NCBI GenBank assembly: GCA_005879535.1
Contig: VBKI01000072.1
Span: 1-50,886, forward strand
Source: Deltaproteobacteria bacterium
GTDB taxonomy: Bacteria > Myxococcota > Myxococcia > Myxococcales > 40CM-4-68-19
Length of the DNA: 50,886 nt
Direction: 5' to 3'
The notes below the pieces were generated by a model. The model ran no database searches. It saw only the letters and a program-made list of their open reading frames with translations, and was not told the DNA's origin. A program made the translations under genes and the position numbers. Below, one piece after another: positions 1 through 11,162 of the stretch (the stretch's first letter is position 1; each line of letters starts with the position of its first letter).

Positions 1-624
1 CAACGTCGTCCGCGCCTCTTGCCAGAGCGGCACGGCGGTGTTCGCGAGCAGCACGCCGGTGTAGCTGGTGAGCGGCAAGCCGACGACTCCGGAGGCCAGC
101 GCTGCCGCATCGCCGATCCGCCCGGGAAGCAGCGCCGCCGCGGCGCAGCCGCCAAAGGCCGAGAGCAGCCATGTCCCCAGGTTCATCGGCGAGGTCGGGC
201 GGAAGACCCGCAACATGTAGATGAACCGCTTGCGCATCCCCAGGTCCTCGATGAGCAGGCCGGCGCTGGCCACTGCGCCGGCCGCCGCGATGAAGCGTGC
301 ACGCCGCGCAATGCGGGGAAGCTTTCCTCGACCGAACAGCGAAGCGGCGGCGCCCAAGGCCGCCGATGCGCCCGCCAGCCCGCCGACGTAGAAATAGGTC
401 GGAACGGGCCACTTCCACACCGACTCCTTCAACAGCGGCAGGCCGTAGTACGAATCGTCATCTGCCGTCGCTTCACGCCGCCACGGTCGCCGCTCGAACG
501 GCCGCGCCTCGTCGACGTGTCCGATGCGCTGGAGCGCACCCTCGCCGCGCAGCGCTCCAAGATGCTGGTCGATGTTCCGCCCATCCAACGGAACGCTGCG
601 AGCGGGATCCGTCGCATCGCTCAT
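1..624 (-). CDS. NrfD/PsrC-type membrane subunit of formate dehydrogenase (partial, runs off left edge)
   Basis: Translating the minus strand from the ATG at 624 gives 208 residues with no stop before the window edge, so the C-terminus is missing. After a hydrophilic N-terminus of about 55 residues comes a YYGLPLLKESVWKWPVPTYF segment, then hydrophobic helices and an RVFRPTSPMNLGTW motif. All of these are typical of the NrfD/PsrC/polysulfide-reductase membrane family, which passes electrons to or from quinone. The ATG overlaps the TGA of the upstream FeS subunit (ATGA), so it is translationally coupled. By position it is the quinone-reactive anchor of the formate dehydrogenase. NrfD proteins usually have 8-10 helices and only about four fit in this fragment. 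Confidence 0.88.
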   Translation of the reverse strand, partial: MSDATDPARSVPLDGRNIDQHLGALRGEGALQRIGHVDEARPFERRPWRREATADDDSYYGLPLLKESVWKWPVPTYFYVGGLAGASAALGAAASLFGRGKLPRIARRARFIAAAGAVASAGLLIEDLGMRKRFIYMLRVFRPTSPMNLGTWLLSAFGGCAAAALLPGRIGDAAALASGVVGLPLTSYTGVLLANTAVPLWQEARTTL

Positions 625-1388
625 GGCGTCACCACCGCTGCGAGCGTGAGCGCGGCGAGCCCGACCGCCGCGGCTCCCATCGACAGCCAGCTGCGCCGCA
701 CCTTCTTCGTCGGCACCACCGGATCAGGAGGCAGGTTGTACTTCTCGGGGCGATCGCAGAGCAGGAAGAAGGCGTTCAAACCGCCGGTCCCGGGCTGGCT
801 TTCCGGATCGGCTCCGTAGAGGTACGCCTCGCCCATTCCCTGCGCGTGCAGCTCCTCGACGCGGGAGCGAGCCTTGACGCGCAGCTCGACGAGATCCCCG
901 TACTGGATCGATCCGGTGGGGCAGTGTTTCGCGCAGGCCGGCGTCAGGTCCGCCTTCAGGCGGTCGTAGCAGAGCGTGCACTTCCAGGCCCGGCCGTCGT
1001 CGCCGCGCCGATCGACGACGCCGAAGGGACAGGCAGAGACGCAGTAGCCGCAGCCGTTGCAGATGTCCGGCTGCACGTAGACGCTGCCGAACTCCGTGCG
1101 GACGATGGCCCCGGTGGGACAAGCCTCGAGGCATCCCGCACGCGCGCAGTGCTTGCACACGTCGGACATCATCAGCCAGGAGAAGCTCGAGAGCGTTCCG
1201 CCGAGCGGGACCGGGCGCTCGACGAAGGAGACGTGGCGCCAGGTCGACGATCCGAGATGCCCGGTGTTGTCGTACGAAAGGCCCGTGAAGTTGAAGCCGT
1301 CGTCGGGGAGCTGGTTCCACTGCTTGCAAGCGACCTCGCAGGCCTTGCATCCGATGCAGAGCGTGGTGTCGGTGAAGAAGCCCTTCAT
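621..1388 (-). CDS. Formate dehydrogenase 4Fe-4S ferredoxin-like (beta) subunit
   Basis: This 255-residue protein is an electron-transfer subunit of the FdnH/HybA/DmsB type. It has four cysteine clusters in order: CIGCKACEVACK near residue 11, CKHCARAGCLEACP, CNGCGYCVSACPFGVV, and CTLCYDRL with a later CAKHCP. This is the arrangement that binds four [4Fe-4S] clusters. A hydrophobic segment near the C-terminus (WLSMGAAAVGLAALTLAAVV) suggests a single membrane anchor, as in FdnH. A GAAGGAG ribosome site overlaps the stop of the catalytic-subunit gene and lies about 6 bases before the ATG. The gene sits between the catalytic and NrfD subunits, so it should carry electrons from the molybdenum or tungsten site to the membrane. 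Confidence 0.93.
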   Translation of the reverse strand: MKGFFTDTTLCIGCKACEVACKQWNQLPDDGFNFTGLSYDNTGHLGSSTWRHVSFVERPVPLGGTLSSFSWLMMSDVCKHCARAGCLEACPTGAIVRTEFGSVYVQPDICNGCGYCVSACPFGVVDRRGDDGRAWKCTLCYDRLKADLTPACAKHCPTGSIQYGDLVELRVKARSRVEELHAQGMGEAYLYGADPESQPGTGGLNAFFLLCDRPEKYNLPPDPVVPTKKVRRSWLSMGAAAVGLAALTLAAVVTP

Positions 1389-1390
1389 CG

Positions 1391-4300
1391 CTACTCCTTC
1401 GCGGGGTCGTGCTGCAGCGGCTGCTGCTTGAACGGCCGCAGCCCGACGATGTCGCGCGGCGGCCCCAGCTCCGGCCGCGCGGGGAACCCGTGGACCGCCG
1501 CCCGCCGCACGCGACCGCGCCGCCCAGGGCGGATGTCGGCGGTCAGGGCCTTCGATTCCTGGATGTGCACGTTCGGGTCGGCGACGAAGGCGAGGAGGTC
1601 ATTCGAGGAGTCGCCGCGGACGCGGCCGGTATAGCCCCAGTGATATGGCACCCCGATCTGGTGCACGGTGCGGCCGCGGACGCGCAGGGGCGAGAGGCGG
1701 CGCGTCACCAGTACGCGGCATTCGATGTCGCCGCGGGCGGTGGAGATCGTCGCCCAGCCGCCGTGCACGAGCCCGCGCTTGCCGGCGAGCTCGGGCGATA
1801 CTTCGCAGAACATCTCGGGCATCAGCTCGGAGAGCCAGGAGAGCCAGCGGCTCATGCCGCCGGCCGTGTGGTGCTCGGTGACCCGGTACGTGGTGAGGAC
1901 GCACGAGAACCGCGGATCGGCGAAGGCGCGATGATACGGGTTGCTGCTGGTGTGCCACTCCAGGCGGCGCGGATTGCATTGCTGCCGATAGAGCAGGTTC
2001 TCGACCACCGACTCTTCGGGTTCGTAGTGTGTCGGAAGCGGACCGTCGAGCAGGCCCGCCGGCGCGTACAGCCAGCCCTTCCCGTCGATCTGGAGGATGA
2101 ACGGATCGACGCCGGAGATCGCGTCCAGGCCGGTGGCGCCGAGGATGGGCCGGTACGCAGGAGGCCGATCGGCGATGAAGTCCGGGTTGTCGTAGCCGGT
2201 CCACTTCTGCGCCTCCTCGTCCCACCAGACGTATCTCTTGCGTTCGCTCCAGGGCTTTCCGTCCGGGGCCGCGGAAGCGCGGTTGTAGAGGATCCGGCGG
2301 TTGTCGGGCCATGCCCATCCCCAGTCGGGCGCGACCCAGTGTTGCTCGCGCGCTGGCTTGCGACGCGCCGCCTGGTTGACGCCATTCGCGTACACGCCGG
2401 CGTAGATCCAGCAGCCGCAGGCGGTGCTGCCGTCGCGCTTGAGCTGCGCGTATTTCTGCAACGGCTTGCCGGTGACCAGGTCGCGGCCGTTGATCTCCGC
2501 GAGGACCGCCTCCGCGTCGGGCTCGCCGGGCTTCAGCTCGGGATAGTCCCACGTCAGCGCCCGAATCGGCCGGTCGCGATCGATGGTCGAATCCGCGTAC
2601 AGCTCGCGCAGCCGCTTGCCGAGCTCGTAGGTGAACTGCAGGTCGGAACGGCAGTCGCCGGGCGGCTCGACCGCCTTGTGGTGCCATTGCAGCATGCGCT
2701 GCGTATTCGTGAACGAGCCGTCCTTCTCGGTATGCGTCGCCGCCGGGAAGAAGAAGACCTCGGTGCCGATCTCTTCCGGCCGGATCTCGCCGCTCGCGAT
2801 CTCGGGCGCGGTGCGCCAGAACTCCGCTGTTTCGGTGAGCGCAAAGTCGCGGACCACCAGCCACTCCAGCTTGCGCAGCCCTTCCCGGTGGTATGCCCCG
2901 TTGCTGGATCCGACGACCGGGTTCTCGCCGATGACGAAGTAGCCGCGGAGCTTGCCCTGCGCCATGTCGGCGACCGTCGTCATGTGCGAATGGTCGCCGG
3001 AGATCGCCGGCAACCAGCGGAATCCCCAGTCCGTCTCCTCGGTCGCCGCCTCGCCGAACCACGATTTCATCAGCGACACGAAGTACGCCGGATACTCCGA
3101 CCAGAACCCCGCGCCGGCGGAATTGATCCGGAGGTATTCGCTCAGGTTGTCGTGGTTCGCATGTGGCATCGGCAGGTAGCCGGGCAGCAGATTGAACAGC
3201 GTGGGGATGTCCGTCGACCCCTGGATGCTCGCGTGGCCGCGCAGCGCCATGATGCCGCCGCCGGGCCGGCCGATGTTGCCGAGCAGCAGCTGGATGATGG
3301 CGGCGCTGCGGATGTATTGGACGCCGACGGTGTGCTGCGTCCATCCCACCGCGTAACAGAAGGCGCCGGTACGATCGGGCCCGGAGTTCTCGCAGAGCCA
3401 CTCGCAAACCTTGAGGAACTTCTCCGGGGAAACGCCGCAGATGTCCGCTACCGCCTCGGGCGTATAGCGCGCGAAGTGCTTGCGGAGGATCTGGTAGACG
3501 CAGCGCGGGTGCTGCAGCGACGGGTCGGATTTCCGATGCGTGATGTCGAGCCCGCGGACCTTCGGAGGAACACCTTTGGGGACGACCTCCTTGTGGCCCG
3601 CGGCGGGCATGTCGCCGACGTCCGCGTATTTCCACGTCTCGGTGTCGTATTCGCCGGACGCGGCGTCCCAGCCGCTGAAGAACCCTTCCAGGTCCTCGGG
3701 ATCCGCATAGTCGTCGGAGACGATGACCGGCGCGTTGGTGTAGTTGACGACGTATTCCTTGAACGCGCGGTCGTTCTCGAGGATGTACCGGATGATGCCG
3801 CCGAGAAACGCGATGTCGGTACCGGCGCGCAGCGGCACGTACAGATCCGCCATGGCGCTGGTGCGGGTGAACCGCGGATCGACGTGGACGATCTTCGCCC
3901 CGCGCGCCTTCGCCTCCATCACCCATTGGAACCCGACCGGATGGCACTCGGCCATGTTCGAGCCCTGGATGACGATGACGTCGGCATTCTTCAGATCCTG
4001 CTGGAACGTCGTCGCCCCGCCCCGTCCGAACGAGATGCCCAGACCGGGCACCGTGGAGCTGTGTCAGATCCGGGCCTGGTTCTCGACCTGGATGACGCCG
4101 AGCGCGGTGTAAAGCTTCTTGAGCAGGTAGTTCTCTTCGTTGTCGAGCGTGGCGCCGCCGAGGTGCGCGATCCCGAGCGTGCGCTGCACGCCGTTTCCCT
4201 TCGGGTCCTTGTCCTCCCAGGTCTGATCGCGCGCGCTCTTCACGCGCTGCGCGACCATCTCCATCGCCTGGGCGAGCGGGATCCCTTCCCAATGCGTCCC

Positions 4301-4633
4301 GAACGGACGGCGATGAAGGACGCGATCGATGCGATGCGAGCCGGTGACGAGCTGGAAGGTTGCCGCCCCCTTCGGACAGAGGCGGCCGCGGGAGACCGGC
4401 GAATCCTCGTCGCCTTCGATGTCGAGGATGCGTCCGTCCTTGACGTAGACGTTCTGACCGCACCCGACGGCGCAGTACGGACACACGGACTTGTGGACTT
4501 CCGCGCCATCGATGCGCGGGCGCAACCCGGCGCTGCGCTCCGTCCAGGCGGACGGGCCCAGGGCCGTGAGATCGCCGTGGAGCGCCTGGCGGGCGACCGG
4601 CCACACGCTCGACAAGACCTTGAAGAGGCCCAC
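1391..4633 (-). CDS. Selenocysteine-containing formate dehydrogenase, catalytic (alpha) subunit
   Basis: Formate oxidation subunit of the FdnG/FdhF molybdopterin family, about 1080 residues. The frame is interrupted by one TGA at 4066-4064 (codon 190), inside VENQARI-U-HSSTVPGLG, exactly where E. coli FdnG has its catalytic selenocysteine. Homology continues on both sides and a SECIS hairpin follows, so this is read-through, not a pseudogene. A [4Fe-4S] site is formed by Cys51, Cys54, Cys58 and Cys86. Downstream, the residues NMAECHPVGFQWVMEA and IGENPVVGSSNGAYH are typical of the family. The start chosen is GTG at 4633; no ATG lies before the FeS motif and no strong ribosome site is visible. 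I see no twin-arginine signal, unlike E. coli FdnG. It is the first gene of an operon with the FeS and NrfD subunits. Confidence 0.94.
4034..4066 (-). promoter_or_regulatory. Bacterial SECIS element with the selenocysteine UGA codon
   Basis: On the transcript, the UGA (4066-4064) is followed after 18 bases by a GGUCU loop (4045-4041). The loop is closed by a 7-bp stem formed by GGUGCCC (4052-4046) and GGGCAUC (4040-4034), with one G-U pair. The loop sequence and the spacing from UGA match the E. coli fdhF SECIS as I remember it. The bulged U seen in the E. coli stem is not obvious here. This element would recruit SelB and Sec-tRNA. Confidence 0.87.
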
Positions 4634-6206: not shown

Positions 6207-7218
6207 TCATCGGCGAGTAGTGCGAATCAGGAGGTAACCGAGCCCGCCCGGCTCGAACCCTGCCGCGTTGCGCACGTTGATTACCAACTCTCCGGAGGGA
6301 AGCTCCCAGTAGACGTCCGCGCGGACGTCCTGTTTCGCGTCGAGTTGGGGGACGTCGAGAAGCTTTTCCCAGTGGACCCCATCCGCGCTTCCCCAGAGCG
6401 AAGCCTGCCTCCAGCCCGCCGGAGAGACGTCGGCGTCGAGCTCGTAGGTGGCGCCGACCACGTAACCGCCCGCGCGGATGGCGTGCGTGGAGTAACTCGC
6501 GGACGGCAACGTCTGGTAGCGCGTCACGCTTCCGTCGAGGCCGATCCGGGCGATCCCCGGACGCGGTGGAAGGTAGCTGATGTCCTGGCCGCACAGCAGC
6601 GAGCCGTCGGGCAGGAGGGTGGCGTCGACGATGTCGCCGTCCTGCGACCCCGCGACAATTGCGGTCCAGGTGGCTCCTCCATCCGTGGACCTGTACACGC
6701 CCGACTGCAAGTCCGTGTCGCCGAAGAAGGCCCAGAGCGCGTGTCGGGCCGGGTCGGCGATCAGCCCATGGCCGTGGCGATGACCCTGGAACAGGCGACG
6801 GACGGCCCAGGTCGCGCCTCCGTCCACCGATTGCCAGAGGCGGATGAGGGCATTGCCCGCGGTGAAGACCTGGTACTCGAGGAAGTACGCCGCCTCGTCC
6901 AACTCGGCGAAGGTGTGCGGCGTCAGCGATCTGTACGCTCCGAGCGGGAGCACTTCCGTCCAGGTCGCGCCACGGTCCGTGGAGCGGGCGATGGCATGGC
7001 CAGCGCCTGTCGCCACGTCGGCGAGCAGCGTGCCGTCCGAGAGCGGCTGAAGCATCCAGAACGAGGCCCCGCCAGTGGTCGCTCCGCGTTTCGACCAGGC
7101 GCGGCCGTCGGCGCTGGACCACAGCTCCGCGTCCGAGGCGGCGAGGTTGACGCCATACGCGGTGCCCGCGCGATCGACGGCGAGCAGATTGAAGCCCGTC
7201 TCCGTGTAGGTGATCTCG
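6207..7218 (-). repeat. Tandem duplication, copy 1 of the BNR C-terminal domain
   Basis: The stretch is a diverged direct repeat of about 1 kb whose partner is 7467-8490. The protein ends match almost residue by residue: ITYTETGFNLLAVDR here, VTYTETGFDLMAVDR in the partner, and a shared FQGHRHxHGL segment. The stop codons are 1260 bases apart, with small indels inside the unit. Confidence 0.85.
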
Positions 7219-7373
7219 GCGGCCAGGCGCGAGCCGGCGTCGCGGGGGTCCCCAGGCGGCAGCGCTGGACCGCCTGCGTCTGTGGAGTCCGTAGTGGAGT
7301 GCGCGGCCGGCGGGACAGAGCCACCGCAAGCGACCAGGGCGAGCGCCGCCACTGCGGCCGTGGCACGTGTCAT
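6207..7373 (-). CDS. BNR/Asp-box repeat lipoprotein (sialidase-like beta-propeller fold)
   Basis: This 388-residue protein starts with a lipoprotein signal ending in the lipobox LVAC (residues 13-16, Cys16), then a low-complexity spacer rich in Ser, Asp, Pro and Gly. The rest is a beta-propeller-type domain with Asp-boxes STDRGATW, SVDGGATW and STDGGATW. Such boxes occur in sialidases and in many non-enzymatic surface proteins, and I see no assignable sialidase catalytic set, so an enzyme function is not claimed. The domain from about residue 50 onward is closely similar to the C-terminal domain of the neighbouring 1231-residue protein, so the pair arose by tandem duplication. It is probably anchored in the outer membrane facing outward or the periplasm. 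Confidence 0.85.
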   Translation of the reverse strand: MTRATAAVAALALVACGGSVPPAAHSTTDSTDAGGPALPPGDPRDAGSRLAAEITYTETGFNLLAVDRAGTAYGVNLAASDAELWSSADGRAWSKRGATTGGASFWMLQPLSDGTLLADVATGAGHAIARSTDRGATWTEVLPLGAYRSLTPHTFAELDEAAYFLEYQVFTAGNALIRLWQSVDGGATWAVRRLFQGHRHGHGLIADPARHALWAFFGDTDLQSGVYRSTDGGATWTAIVAGSQDGDIVDATLLPDGSLLCGQDISYLPPRPGIARIGLDGSVTRYQTLPSASYSTHAIRAGGYVVGATYELDADVSPAGWRQASLWGSADGVHWEKLLDVPQLDAKQDVRADVYWELPSGELVINVRNAAGFEPGGLGYLLIRTTRR

Positions 7374-7466: not shown

Positions 7467-8490
7467 TCACTGTCGCGTGGTGTGCAGGAGCATGTACCCG
7501 CGGCCGCCGGGGCCGAAGCCGGAGGCATTGCGGACGCTCACGACCAGCTCTCCGGTGGCGAGCTCCCAGTAGACGTCGGTGCGGACGTCGTCGTTCGGGT
7601 CGAGCTGTGGGACGTCCAGCAGCTTTTGCCAGCGGATGGCGTCGCCACTTCCCCAGAGCGAACCGCGGGTCCAACCCGGCGGGGAAATGTCGTTGCTCGT
7701 TTCGTACGTCGCCCCCACGACGTAACCGCCGGCGCTGATTGCGTGGGTCGAGTAGCTGGCTGTTGGAAGCTGCTGATAGTCGGTCTCGGTGCCGTCGAGG
7801 GCGACCCGGGCAATCTGCGGAGTATCGGGAATCGACCCACGGTAGCTGATGTCCTGGCCGCAGAGGAACGAGCCGTCGGAAAGCACGACGCCATCCACGA
7901 TGTCTCCGGCCTGCGTGTTGCCGATGATCATCCTCCAACTGGCGCCTCCATCCGTGGAACGGAAGAGGCCCGACTGGTTGTCGAAGTCGCCGAAGAACGC
8001 GAACAGCGCGTGGCGCGCCGGATCGGGCATCAGGCCGTGGGCGTGCCGGTGACCCTGGAAGGTGAACTGCACGGACCAGGTAGCGCCGCGGTCGAGCGAC
8101 TTCCACAGCCGGATCGGCGTCGAGGCGGTGGTGAAGACCTGGTACTCGATGAAGAAGACGACGCCGTCCAGCTCGGCGAAGCTGTGCGGCGTGAGCGTGC
8201 GATACACGCCGGTGTTGAGGACCTGCGTCCAGGTCACGCCGTGATCCGTCGAGCGCGCGAGCGCATGGCCCGAGCTCGTCACCACGTCGGCGATCAGCGT
8301 GTTGTCGGACAGAGGGGTCATCATCCAGAATGACGCGCCATTTGCGGTGCCGCCGCGCCGCGTCCAGCTACGGCCGTCCACCGTGGTCCAGACCTGCGAT
8401 TCGGGTGCGTTGAGGTTCACGCCGTACGCCGTTCCGGAGCGATCGACGGCCATCAGATCGAAGCCGGTCTCGGTGTACGTGACGGTCGCG
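7467..8490 (-). repeat. Tandem duplication, copy 2 of the BNR C-terminal domain
   Basis: This is the partner of 6207-7218, forming the last domain of the 1231-residue protein. Shared segments include SLTPHxFAELD, EYQVFT and LLCGQDISY. Because copy 2 is attached to a longer mosaic protein and copy 1 is a stand-alone lipoprotein, the direction of duplication cannot be decided here. Confidence 0.85.
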
Positions 8491-11162
8491 GAGAGCGTCC
8501 CGCCACCGTCGGCCGGTCCGGCATCGGCCGGTCCCGCGTCGGGTGGACCCGCATCGGGAGACCCGGCGTCGGGTGGACCCGCATCGGGAGGCCCGGCATC
8601 GGGCGTACCGCCGTCGGTACCGCCCGCGGCTCTGCTCCCGCTGACCGTGAAGTCGCGGAACCAGATGCCCGCCAGGTCCGTCCACATCCCCGCTGTTCCC
8701 GCCGCCGTGACGGCTGAGGCCGAGGAATCGTTCACGATCACTTTCGCTATGCCGTTCGCCGAGCCCACCAGCTTCACCGGGTTCGACCCGGTCACGGACA
8801 AACCGATGGTCGCCCACCATCCCAGGTCCGCAATCCCGCTCGGCGCTTGTCCGAGCACGGTCACGGTCGCGCCGTTGTGGCGCCTGACTTGCAGCGAGCC
8901 GTTTGCAAGCAGCGCGACGTCGTAGCGGTCGTTCGAGGACTGCTGGCGCAGGTCGAGCTCCGCTACCCCCGCCGAGAAATTGATGACCTGTGCAGACACG
9001 GTGCAGTCGGCGCAGGAGAGATTCTGCACCACCGCCTGGTCGCTGCCGTCCAGGTCCGATTCGGCCCGGGGAGTGGTCGCGCTGGTGTGCCACGATCCGG
9101 AAACGACACGCCAGTTGGACCCGAGGCCCGTAGCTCGGTTGAAGCCGTCGGAGAACAGGACTCCGGAACCGGCGTCGGGCGAGCCGGCATCGGGCGGGCC
9201 GGCATCGGGCGAGCCGGCATCGGGAGGTCCTGCATCGGGCGGCCCGGCGTCGGGAAGTCCTGCATCGGGCGTACCCGCATCGGGGGAACCGGCATCGGGC
9301 GTTCCGGCATCGGGGGAACCGGCATCGGGCGTTCCGCCGTCGGTCCCGCCAGCTGGCGCTCCCGTCACCGTGAATTTGACAAACCAGATTCCCGCGAGGT
9401 TGGTCCAGATCCCCGCCGTACCCGCCACGCGTATGGCGGATGGCGACGAATCGTTGACCACCAGCTTCGTCACGCCGTCCACCGACGCGACGAGGTTCAC
9501 CGGATTCGAGCCGGTCGCCGAGAGCGCGATGGTCGCCCACCAACCCAGATCCGGGATCCCGCTCGGCGCCTCGCCCAGCACGGTGACCGTTGCGCCGTTG
9601 TGCCGGCGGATCTGGAGGTTGCCGTTCGCCAGCAGCGCGACGTCGTATCGATCGTTCGAGGACTGCTGGCGCAGGTCGAGCTCCGCTACCCCCGCCGAGA
9701 AATTGATGACCTGCGCGGACACGCTGCAGTCGGCGCAGGAGAGACTCTGCACTACCGCCTGGTCGCTGCCGTCCAGGTCCGATTCGGCCCGCGGAGTGGT
9801 CGCGCTGGTGTGCCACGATCCGGAAACGACACGCCAGTTCGGGCCGAGCCCGGTGGTTCGCTTGAAGTCGTCGCTGAAGAGAATGCCGGATTGCGCAGGA
9901 GGAGGTCCCGCATCGGGAGTTCCGGCATCAGGCGCTCCGGCATCGGGCGTTCCGGCGTCGGGCGTCCCGGCGTCGGGGGCGGGGGGCGCGGCATTCGGCG
10001 TGGGTGCAAACGCGAGCGCGACGTTGCCGCTGCTGCTCGCGTCGGGTGTCTTCCCGTAAAAGCAGGGGATCCGGGGAACGGTATTCGGCAGGGTCTCGGC
10101 CGACGCCGGATATCCCTGGAAGCCGCCACTACCGTCCAGCAGGACGGGGCTCCCGAACGACCCGTTCGCAAGCACCCGGTAGAAGAACTGGTAGTTCGTG
10201 TTCGTGGACAGTACGCGGTTCCAGAAGATCACCAGGCTGCCGCCCACCCGCGTGATCGCGGGCTGCAGCGCCCAGTCCGCGGCGCTCTCCACCTGCGTCC
10301 GCCCGCTCCAGCTTCCGCTCCAGCGGCGATACCAGAGCTGACCGTTGACGTCCTTGTAGAGGAGGTACACGCCGCCGCCGCCGTCGCCGGCGGCGCTCAG
10401 CGCCGCGCCATGGTAGATGCCCTCGGGAAACACGGCCTGGCGCGCGCCCCAGGTCGAGACGGGATCGGTGTCCGTGCGCAGGCGCATGTAACCGGCCTCG
10501 ACCCCGTGCGTGCCGTAGATCAGCATGAGCTGATTTCCGGCTACCGGCAGGATGCGCCCACCGGGCCGGTCGGCGAAGGTATCGAGCGAAGGCTGCGCCT
10601 GGAACGTCGCGCCCCCGTCGCTGCTGACCGCCATCACCATCGTGAACGTGCCGTCGGCGTTCAGCCGCTGCGCCCAGACCCAGAGCCGTCCCAAGGAATC
10701 GCGCGCGAGCTCCGCGCGCAGATACGCCGTTGCGCTGGAGGTCGAGTCGAAGACCTTGACCGCCGTCTGCGACCCCCAGTCCGCGTTGCCGTTCCATCGC
10801 CACCACTGGAAGTACACGTCGTGCGCCGTCGAGCCCGAGAGCGTCGGCCCTTCCCAGGAATAGACCAGCGCGACGTCCATCCCGACGGCGAGCAGATCCG
10901 GCGTATCGCGCTCGCAGCAAACGTCCTGGACCGGGGCGTACCAGCGCCAGGTCTGCGCTTCGTCCGTGCTCCGGTACATCGAGAGCCAGTGCCCACTTGC
11001 GCCGTCCTGCTGCACGGCCAGGAGCCAGGTGGCGGGGGCGCCGTTCTGAGGATCGAGCCGCACCAGGTGTCGCTGGGCCGGCAGCGTCAGGGCGTTTCCA
11101 CCGCCGGCGGCCAGGACGTTTTGCGGCGCCGCAATCAACAGCGCCGCCGCTAGTGCGACCAT
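7467..11162 (-). CDS. Large secreted multidomain BNR-repeat protein with PDAG linkers
   Basis: Secreted protein of 1231 residues with an N-terminal signal peptide (hydrophobic MVALAAALLIAAPQNVLAAG). The first 390 residues form a sialidase-like BNR region with Asp-boxes (YRSTDEAQTW, SSDGGATF). Next come two closely similar domains of about 180 residues, each opening with GxLFSDxFxRxTGLGxNWR, as in laminin-G/concanavalin-like modules. The C-terminal 340 residues are a BNR domain paralogous to the whole neighbouring lipoprotein. The domains are joined by PDAG-repeat linkers (SPDAGTPDAG type), which are common in Myxococcota surface proteins. The ATG at 11162 follows a GGAGGGGGGA ribosome site. 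Expected location is extracellular or cell-surface; a glycan-binding role is possible but not shown by sequence. Confidence 0.86.
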   Translation of the reverse strand: MVALAAALLIAAPQNVLAAGGGNALTLPAQRHLVRLDPQNGAPATWLLAVQQDGASGHWLSMYRSTDEAQTWRWYAPVQDVCCERDTPDLLAVGMDVALVYSWEGPTLSGSTAHDVYFQWWRWNGNADWGSQTAVKVFDSTSSATAYLRAELARDSLGRLWVWAQRLNADGTFTMVMAVSSDGGATFQAQPSLDTFADRPGGRILPVAGNQLMLIYGTHGVEAGYMRLRTDTDPVSTWGARQAVFPEGIYHGAALSAAGDGGGGVYLLYKDVNGQLWYRRWSGSWSGRTQVESAADWALQPAITRVGGSLVIFWNRVLSTNTNYQFFYRVLANGSFGSPVLLDGSGGFQGYPASAETLPNTVPRIPCFYGKTPDASSSGNVALAFAPTPNAAPPAPDAGTPDAGTPDAGAPDAGTPDAGPPPAQSGILFSDDFKRTTGLGPNWRVVSGSWHTSATTPRAESDLDGSDQAVVQSLSCADCSVSAQVINFSAGVAELDLRQQSSNDRYDVALLANGNLQIRRHNGATVTVLGEAPSGIPDLGWWATIALSATGSNPVNLVASVDGVTKLVVNDSSPSAIRVAGTAGIWTNLAGIWFVKFTVTGAPAGGTDGGTPDAGSPDAGTPDAGSPDAGTPDAGLPDAGPPDAGPPDAGSPDAGPPDAGSPDAGSGVLFSDGFNRATGLGSNWRVVSGSWHTSATTPRAESDLDGSDQAVVQNLSCADCTVSAQVINFSAGVAELDLRQQSSNDRYDVALLANGSLQVRRHNGATVTVLGQAPSGIADLGWWATIGLSVTGSNPVKLVGSANGIAKVIVNDSSASAVTAAGTAGMWTDLAGIWFRDFTVSGSRAAGGTDGGTPDAGPPDAGPPDAGSPDAGPPDAGPADAGPADGGGTLSATVTYTETGFDLMAVDRSGTAYGVNLNAPESQVWTTVDGRSWTRRGGTANGASFWMMTPLSDNTLIADVVTSSGHALARSTDHGVTWTQVLNTGVYRTLTPHSFAELDGVVFFIEYQVFTTASTPIRLWKSLDRGATWSVQFTFQGHRHAHGLMPDPARHALFAFFGDFDNQSGLFRSTDGGASWRMIIGNTQAGDIVDGVVLSDGSFLCGQDISYRGSIPDTPQIARVALDGTETDYQQLPTASYSTHAISAGGYVVGATYETSNDISPPGWTRGSLWGSGDAIRWQKLLDVPQLDPNDDVRTDVYWELATGELVVSVRNASGFGPGGRGYMLLHTTRQ
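8505..8625 (-). repeat. PDAG-encoding minisatellite, linker before the C-terminal BNR domain
   Basis: Short direct repeats with a 9/18-base rhythm (on the plus strand, GCATCGGG units alternating with GGACCC, GACCC or GGCCC variants) encode repeated PDAGxPDAG on the minus strand. Confidence 0.8.
8640..9164 (-). repeat. Internal direct repeat, copy B of the LamG-like domain
   Basis: This matches 9363-9887 at a constant offset of 723 bases, with long identical runs, for example GTTCGAGGACTGCTGGCG at 8931 and 9654. The high DNA identity points to a recent duplication or to gene conversion. Confidence 0.88.
9165..9345 (-). repeat. PDAG-encoding minisatellite, linker between the duplicated domains
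   Basis: About twenty tandem 9-base-rhythm units built around GCATCGGGC encode alternating SPDAG, TPDAG, PPDAG and LPDAG in the minus-strand protein. The number of units is likely to vary between strains by slippage. Confidence 0.85.
9363..9887 (-). repeat. Internal direct repeat, copy A of the LamG-like domain
   Basis: This is the partner of 8640-9164 at a 723-base offset. It encodes the first of the two near-identical modules of the large BNR protein. Confidence 0.88.
9908..9988 (-). repeat. PDAG-encoding minisatellite, linker after the N-terminal BNR domain
   Basis: A shorter run of the same 9-base-rhythm repeat encodes PDAGTPDAGAPDAGTPDAG in the minus-strand protein, between the N-terminal domain and the first duplicated module. 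Confidence 0.8.

Follow-up and report, generated by a model that had tools for sequence, protein, structure and literature searches.

Introduction

In the decoding of selenocysteine by bacteria, SelB binds the SECIS hairpin and delivers Sec-tRNA. The best-known users of this system are the formate dehydrogenases; FdhA and SelD have been described as the most widespread of the bacterial selenoproteins, FdhA being present in 67 of 75 selenocysteine-using organisms (PMC1794560), and the selenocysteine form of FdhA has been counted in 822 organisms (PMC5029168). Our literature searches returned no match on a selenoprotein formate dehydrogenase with a SECIS from the Myxococc group, nor on a Streptomyces selenocysteine formate dehydrogenase with an NrfD subunit. 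Here, we examine such a locus at the end of a myxobacterial contig (VBKI01000072.1 of assembly GCA_005879535.1); the 50,886-nucleotide stretch that was analysed is referred to below as the window. The locus had been singled out in an earlier note for an in-frame TGA at the catalytic selenocysteine site of FdnG/FdhF followed by a GGUCU-loop hairpin. That observation is exact, and its interpretation is supported as right in substance and as mostly right in detail.

Results

The alpha-subunit gene and its UGA codon

Five features at the beginning of the window are needed for what follows:

1391..4633, minus strand: alpha subunit of formate dehydrogenase (1080 residues, the UGA counted as selenocysteine), GTG start at 4631-4633
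4064..4066, minus strand: in-frame TGA, the predicted selenocysteine codon (residue 190), aligned to the non-standard residue X of 1h0h_A; TGA in 101 of 109 homologues
4034..4052, minus strand: SECIS hairpin of the bacterial type, with a stem of 7 bp and its GGUCU loop (4041-4045) beginning 18 nt past the TGA
621..1388, minus strand: iron-sulphur beta subunit, 255 residues, Pfam Fer4_11 and others above cut-off
1..624, minus strand: first 208 residues of an NrfD-type membrane subunit (Pfam NrfD, 44 bits against a cut-off of 25.8), the contig ending within the gene

The frame around the TGA is open on both sides: a 189-codon ORF at 4064-4633 on the minus strand is terminated by this codon, and the same frame then continues without interruption down to 1391. 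When the UGA is read through, the product scores 1808 bits against NF041513 (cut-off 1400) and 971.3 bits against TIGR01553 (cut-off 814.2) in the NCBIfam search, and the Pfam domains Molybdop_Fe4S4, Molybdopterin and Molydop_binding are all above their cut-offs. The codon lies in the context NQARI-U-HSSTVPGLG, with a histidine as the next residue (the UH motif), and in the alignment it falls opposite the non-standard residue of a solved formate dehydrogenase (1h0h_A), so that its placement at the catalytic site was correct. The interval originally assigned to the feature, 4034-4633, takes in the hairpin and the 5' part of the gene but stops well short of the gene's end at 1391. The predicted selenocysteine-containing alpha subunit belongs, as an ordinary example, to the best known of the bacterial selenoprotein families.

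It had also been expected that automated annotation would split such a gene in two or call it a pseudogene, and according to a 2026 review (PMC13188914) truncation of selenoprotein genes by pipelines is still frequent. For current NCBI annotation this fails: in the four plasmid records L141-L144 the homologue, with its TGA at the site, is entered as a single full-length gene, and E. coli fdhF and fdnG are likewise one CDS each; a fifth record (L145) has no annotation at the locus. The remark is out of date for NCBI's pipeline.

The SECIS hairpin

The hairpin, GGUGCCC-GGUCU-GGGCAUC, has seven pairs and in 24 nt folds at -12.2 kcal/mol (z -3.0). Between the end of the TGA and GGTCT lie 18 nt, as many as in E. 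coli fdhF (NC_000913.3), in agreement with the spacing given in the earlier note. Such an arrangement is rare by chance. We scanned for an [AG]GT[CT]T loop with at least 5 closing pairs, 10-26 nt downstream of a TGA. The window holds 803 TGA trinucleotides, 419 on one strand and 384 on the other, and of these only the one at 4064-4066 qualified; in 30 order-1 Markov copies of the window the mean was 0.17 sites per copy, and no copy had a site at exactly 18 nt.

Thermodynamic prediction in longer contexts is less favorable. Rfam at the gathering threshold and ARAGORN found no match in the window, an absence to which we attach no meaning for the SECIS. A 43-nt stretch that includes the hairpin is no more stable than its shuffles (z -0.35), and neither the 43-nt nor the 50-nt folds of the region favor the SECIS. 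These folds count against the SECIS, and we have given them less weight than the comparative evidence below. In a 60-nt context the computed pairing probability of the window's SECIS stem is 0.0, because a downstream hairpin wins. In the same context the loop-adjacent pairs reach 0.2 in L032, 0.41 in L033 and 0.98-1.0 in L037, L040 and L043; the competing downstream hairpin is thus not a conserved feature. We attribute the competing fold to the effect of high G+C on the thermodynamic model. That the GC-rich downstream hairpin might instead be a cis-acting switch, which would delay selenocysteine insertion until the ribosome or some factor opened it, is a model that we consider very unlikely.

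Synonymous covariation in the selenocysteine copies and loss of the stem in the cysteine copies

The comparative evidence on the hairpin comes from 109 sequences, made up of the window, every one of the 80 loci from the homologue search, and 28 class loci (the 29 of L112-L140 without L114, whose contig begins at the TGA). A tighter motif removed chance matches on the minus strands of L064 and L097 and one in L065. At the selenocysteine site the codon is TGA in 101 sequences, TGC in 6 and TAG in 2. Where it is TGA, one pair of the SECIS stem joins the third base of a valine codon to the third base of a glycine codon four codons on. The codon combinations in the 101 copies are GTC/GGG (37), GTT/GGA (27), GTG/GGC (22) and GTT/GGG (14), with a single unpaired GTG/GGG. 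The same organism may occur twice among the records (L032 and L112 are identical here), and for this reason the test was made on distinct sequences: the pair is kept in 52 of 53, whereas 20,000 shuffles, which take no account of relatedness, averaged 34.0 and never exceeded 44. Changes at both third bases are synonymous, and the covariation is therefore not due to the protein.

The six cysteine copies, all actinobacterial (L074, L080, L087, L094, L102 and L110), carry TGC and have lost the stem in every case; the Val/Gly pair is found in one of them, its loop-side neighbor in none, and their SECIS pairing probabilities are at most 0.12. Taken together, the synonymous covariation in the selenocysteine copies and the loss of pairing in the cysteine copies offer what we regard, on comparative grounds, as a clean demonstration of selection on the hairpin at the RNA level. 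Two of the six cysteine-copy genomes (those of L087 and L094) retain a selA above cut-off and a UCA tRNA-Sec, so that something else in them probably still uses selenocysteine; the other four had no selA above cut-off, and their best tRNA matches were Cys or Ser tRNAs.

In the two TAG copies, at position 6565 of L070 (Geodermatophilus sp. TF02-6) and 6562 of L093 (Klenkia marina), stem and GGUCU loop are both retained. Each of these genomes has a selA above cut-off and a tRNA that scores above the tRNA-Sec cut-off with the anticodon CTA, which ARAGORN labels tRNA-Pyl. The use of UAG for selenocysteine with a CUA tRNA in Geodermatophilaceae has been reported (PMC5330540, citing Mukai 2016), and these copies are thus instances of a known phenomenon.

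Selenocysteine machinery in the genome and in the class

The genome (5.16 Mb, 118 contigs) was scored as 100% complete and 1.11% contaminated. A gene for each part of the selenocysteine pathway is present in it above cut-off, as had been anticipated from the UGA and the hairpin: selA on C77 (500 bits, cut-off 267.9), selB on C67 (269.8 bits for its best piece and 302.7 with the in-frame neighbor, cut-off 242.25), tRNA-Sec (selC) on C38 (70.2 bits, gathering 47; ARAGORN anticodon tca) and selD on C33 (355.4 bits, cut-off 125). These four contigs are all other than the window's. The absence of selA, selB and tRNA-Sec from the genome had been proposed as grounds for rejecting the claim, and all three are there. 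The selD gene (L018 1501-2433) is itself a selenoprotein gene, with an in-frame TGA in the motif GSG-U-ACK.

A second formate dehydrogenase is encoded on C58 (L023 1501-4503); it is 43% identical to that of the window, scores 1349.7 bits against TIGR01553 and has a single TGA with a SECIS-like hairpin behind it. A genome that carries genes for selenoproteins and for formate oxidation suggests that its owner, probably an uncultured myxobacterium, should need selenium; neither this need nor the demonstration that the hairpin is maintained as RNA alters what is already known.

Within the class, 77 of 147 genomes have a formate dehydrogenase match at E<=1e-100. All 56 matches of at least 64% identity that cover the site have exactly one TGA, and three further matches at this level of identity start downstream of the site; for one of these (G005) the match begins at the contig end and its first codon is this TGA. 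The selA gene occurs in 132 of the 147 genomes. It accompanies the formate dehydrogenase match in 76 of the 77, the exception being G002, a genome only 61% complete, and it is also found in 56 of the 70 genomes that have no such match (above cut-off in 54). Given how common selA is without a formate dehydrogenase, co-occurrence alone is weak evidence.

Operon partners, export and neighboring ORFs

The beta gene starts two bases past the alpha stop and overlaps the NrfD-type gene by four bases. Its best NCBIfam match is TIGR01582, FDH-beta, at 181.2 bits, which is below the cut-off of 334.7. L032, the named record that matches best (72% identity), has the same order of alpha, beta (257 residues) and NrfD (348 residues). 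The best matches that carry names are a Deltaproteobacteria MAG, Hyalangium and Myxococcus, and they point to a myxobacterial genome.

No RR pair was seen in the window enzyme in the 70 residues printed upstream of the first cluster motif. A twin-arginine motif is present in FdnG (SRRQFF), and a signal is evident in the C58 enzyme also. A strict twin-arginine pattern applied to 112 sequences matched 1 and failed to match 106, with 5 unreadable; it was too strict, having missed the evident C58 signal, and we have set its count aside and used only the printed segments. The C58 enzyme is probably of the exported FDH-N type, and from these segments we infer that the genome encodes one cytoplasmic formate dehydrogenase, that of the window, and one exported.

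Further into the window, two neighboring ORFs on the minus strand, 7467-11162 and 6207-7373, resemble each other in the C-terminal region (YTETGFDL...), and 7467-11162, which is the longer, has PDAG repeat runs between two near-identical domains.

Discussion

Reading the locus

The locus is almost certainly a standard selenocysteine formate dehydrogenase operon, composed of alpha, iron-sulphur beta and NrfD-type anchor, in which the UGA would be read as selenocysteine. During translation SelB, carrying Sec-tRNA(UCA), would bind the hairpin immediately 3' to the UGA, and the codon would be decoded as selenocysteine instead of as a stop. The selenocysteine would then ligate an active-site Mo or W, where formate would be oxidised to CO2; insertion, catalysis and the identity of the metal are all predicted from the genes. 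Electrons would presumably pass through the beta and NrfD subunits to quinone, with alpha on the cytoplasmic side of the membrane.

Each of the other ways of reading the TGA must account for the same body of evidence. A stop codon does break the frame, as it would if a formate dehydrogenase gene were decaying and the TGA were a nonsense mutation in it; but the remainder of the 1080-codon frame is open, the identical TGA recurs in 101 of 109 homologues, the hairpin is maintained by synonymous covariation and the genome has the machinery to decode it, which together make a pseudogene exceedingly unlikely. Both halves of the gene are listed as table 11 ORFs, and one could imagine two genes with a 189-residue product up to the UGA and an 886-residue product downstream of it. 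A break at this point, however, would hit the active-site motif NQARI-U-HSSTV, which is unbroken in the alignment to the solved enzymes, and would leave the conserved hairpin without a role; we regard this arrangement as next to impossible.

The existence of apparently working cysteine copies (6 of the 109 carry TGC there) lends some plausibility to near-cognate readthrough, in which the UGA would be decoded as cysteine or tryptophan. This would explain neither a SECIS conserved as RNA alongside a cognate UCA tRNA-Sec nor the loss of the hairpin in the cysteine copies, and we judge it as improbable as the pseudogene.

Comparison with known systems

The nearest described arrangements are the NF041513 operons of Arthrobacter (L141), Tsukamurella (L142) and Thermomicrobium (L143), which have the gene order of the window (fdh, 4Fe4S, nrfD) and a TGA followed, at the window's spacing, by a G/AGUC/UU-loop hairpin. 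In L141 and L142 nrfD is followed directly by selD, tRNA-Sec, selA and selB, whereas in the window's genome these are on the four other contigs; the window contig, unlike these two records, ends within nrfD.

Against formate dehydrogenase N of E. coli (FdnGHI), the window's alpha subunit is alike in its TIGR01553 score above cut-off and in the position of its selenocysteine codon and SECIS. It differs in having no RR pair ahead of the cluster motif, where FdnG has SRRQFF, and in its membrane partner, which is of the NrfD type, as in L032, and not of the FdnI type. FdnI is a cytochrome b. The likeness to FdnG drawn in the earlier note therefore holds for the family match and the selenocysteine site; with no visible twin-arginine signal and an NrfD-type anchor, the operon is not a full copy of FdnGHI. 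With fdhF, which encodes formate dehydrogenase H, the window shares the 18-nt spacing and the GGUCU of the loop, but FdhF is a shorter protein (715 residues, 1aa6_A) and gives a partial match to the window's alpha subunit, at 169.3 bits versus 745.9 for FdnG.

Among the myxobacterial relatives, Anaeromyxobacter dehalogenans has FdhA (3) and SelD among its selenoproteins (Zhang et al. 2006, PMC1794560). The total given there for this organism is 11 selenoproteins (PMC1794560); in the window's genome the check covered formate dehydrogenase and SelD. The selenocysteine formate dehydrogenase described here is of an already known kind, and it is ordinary for bacteria of this group.
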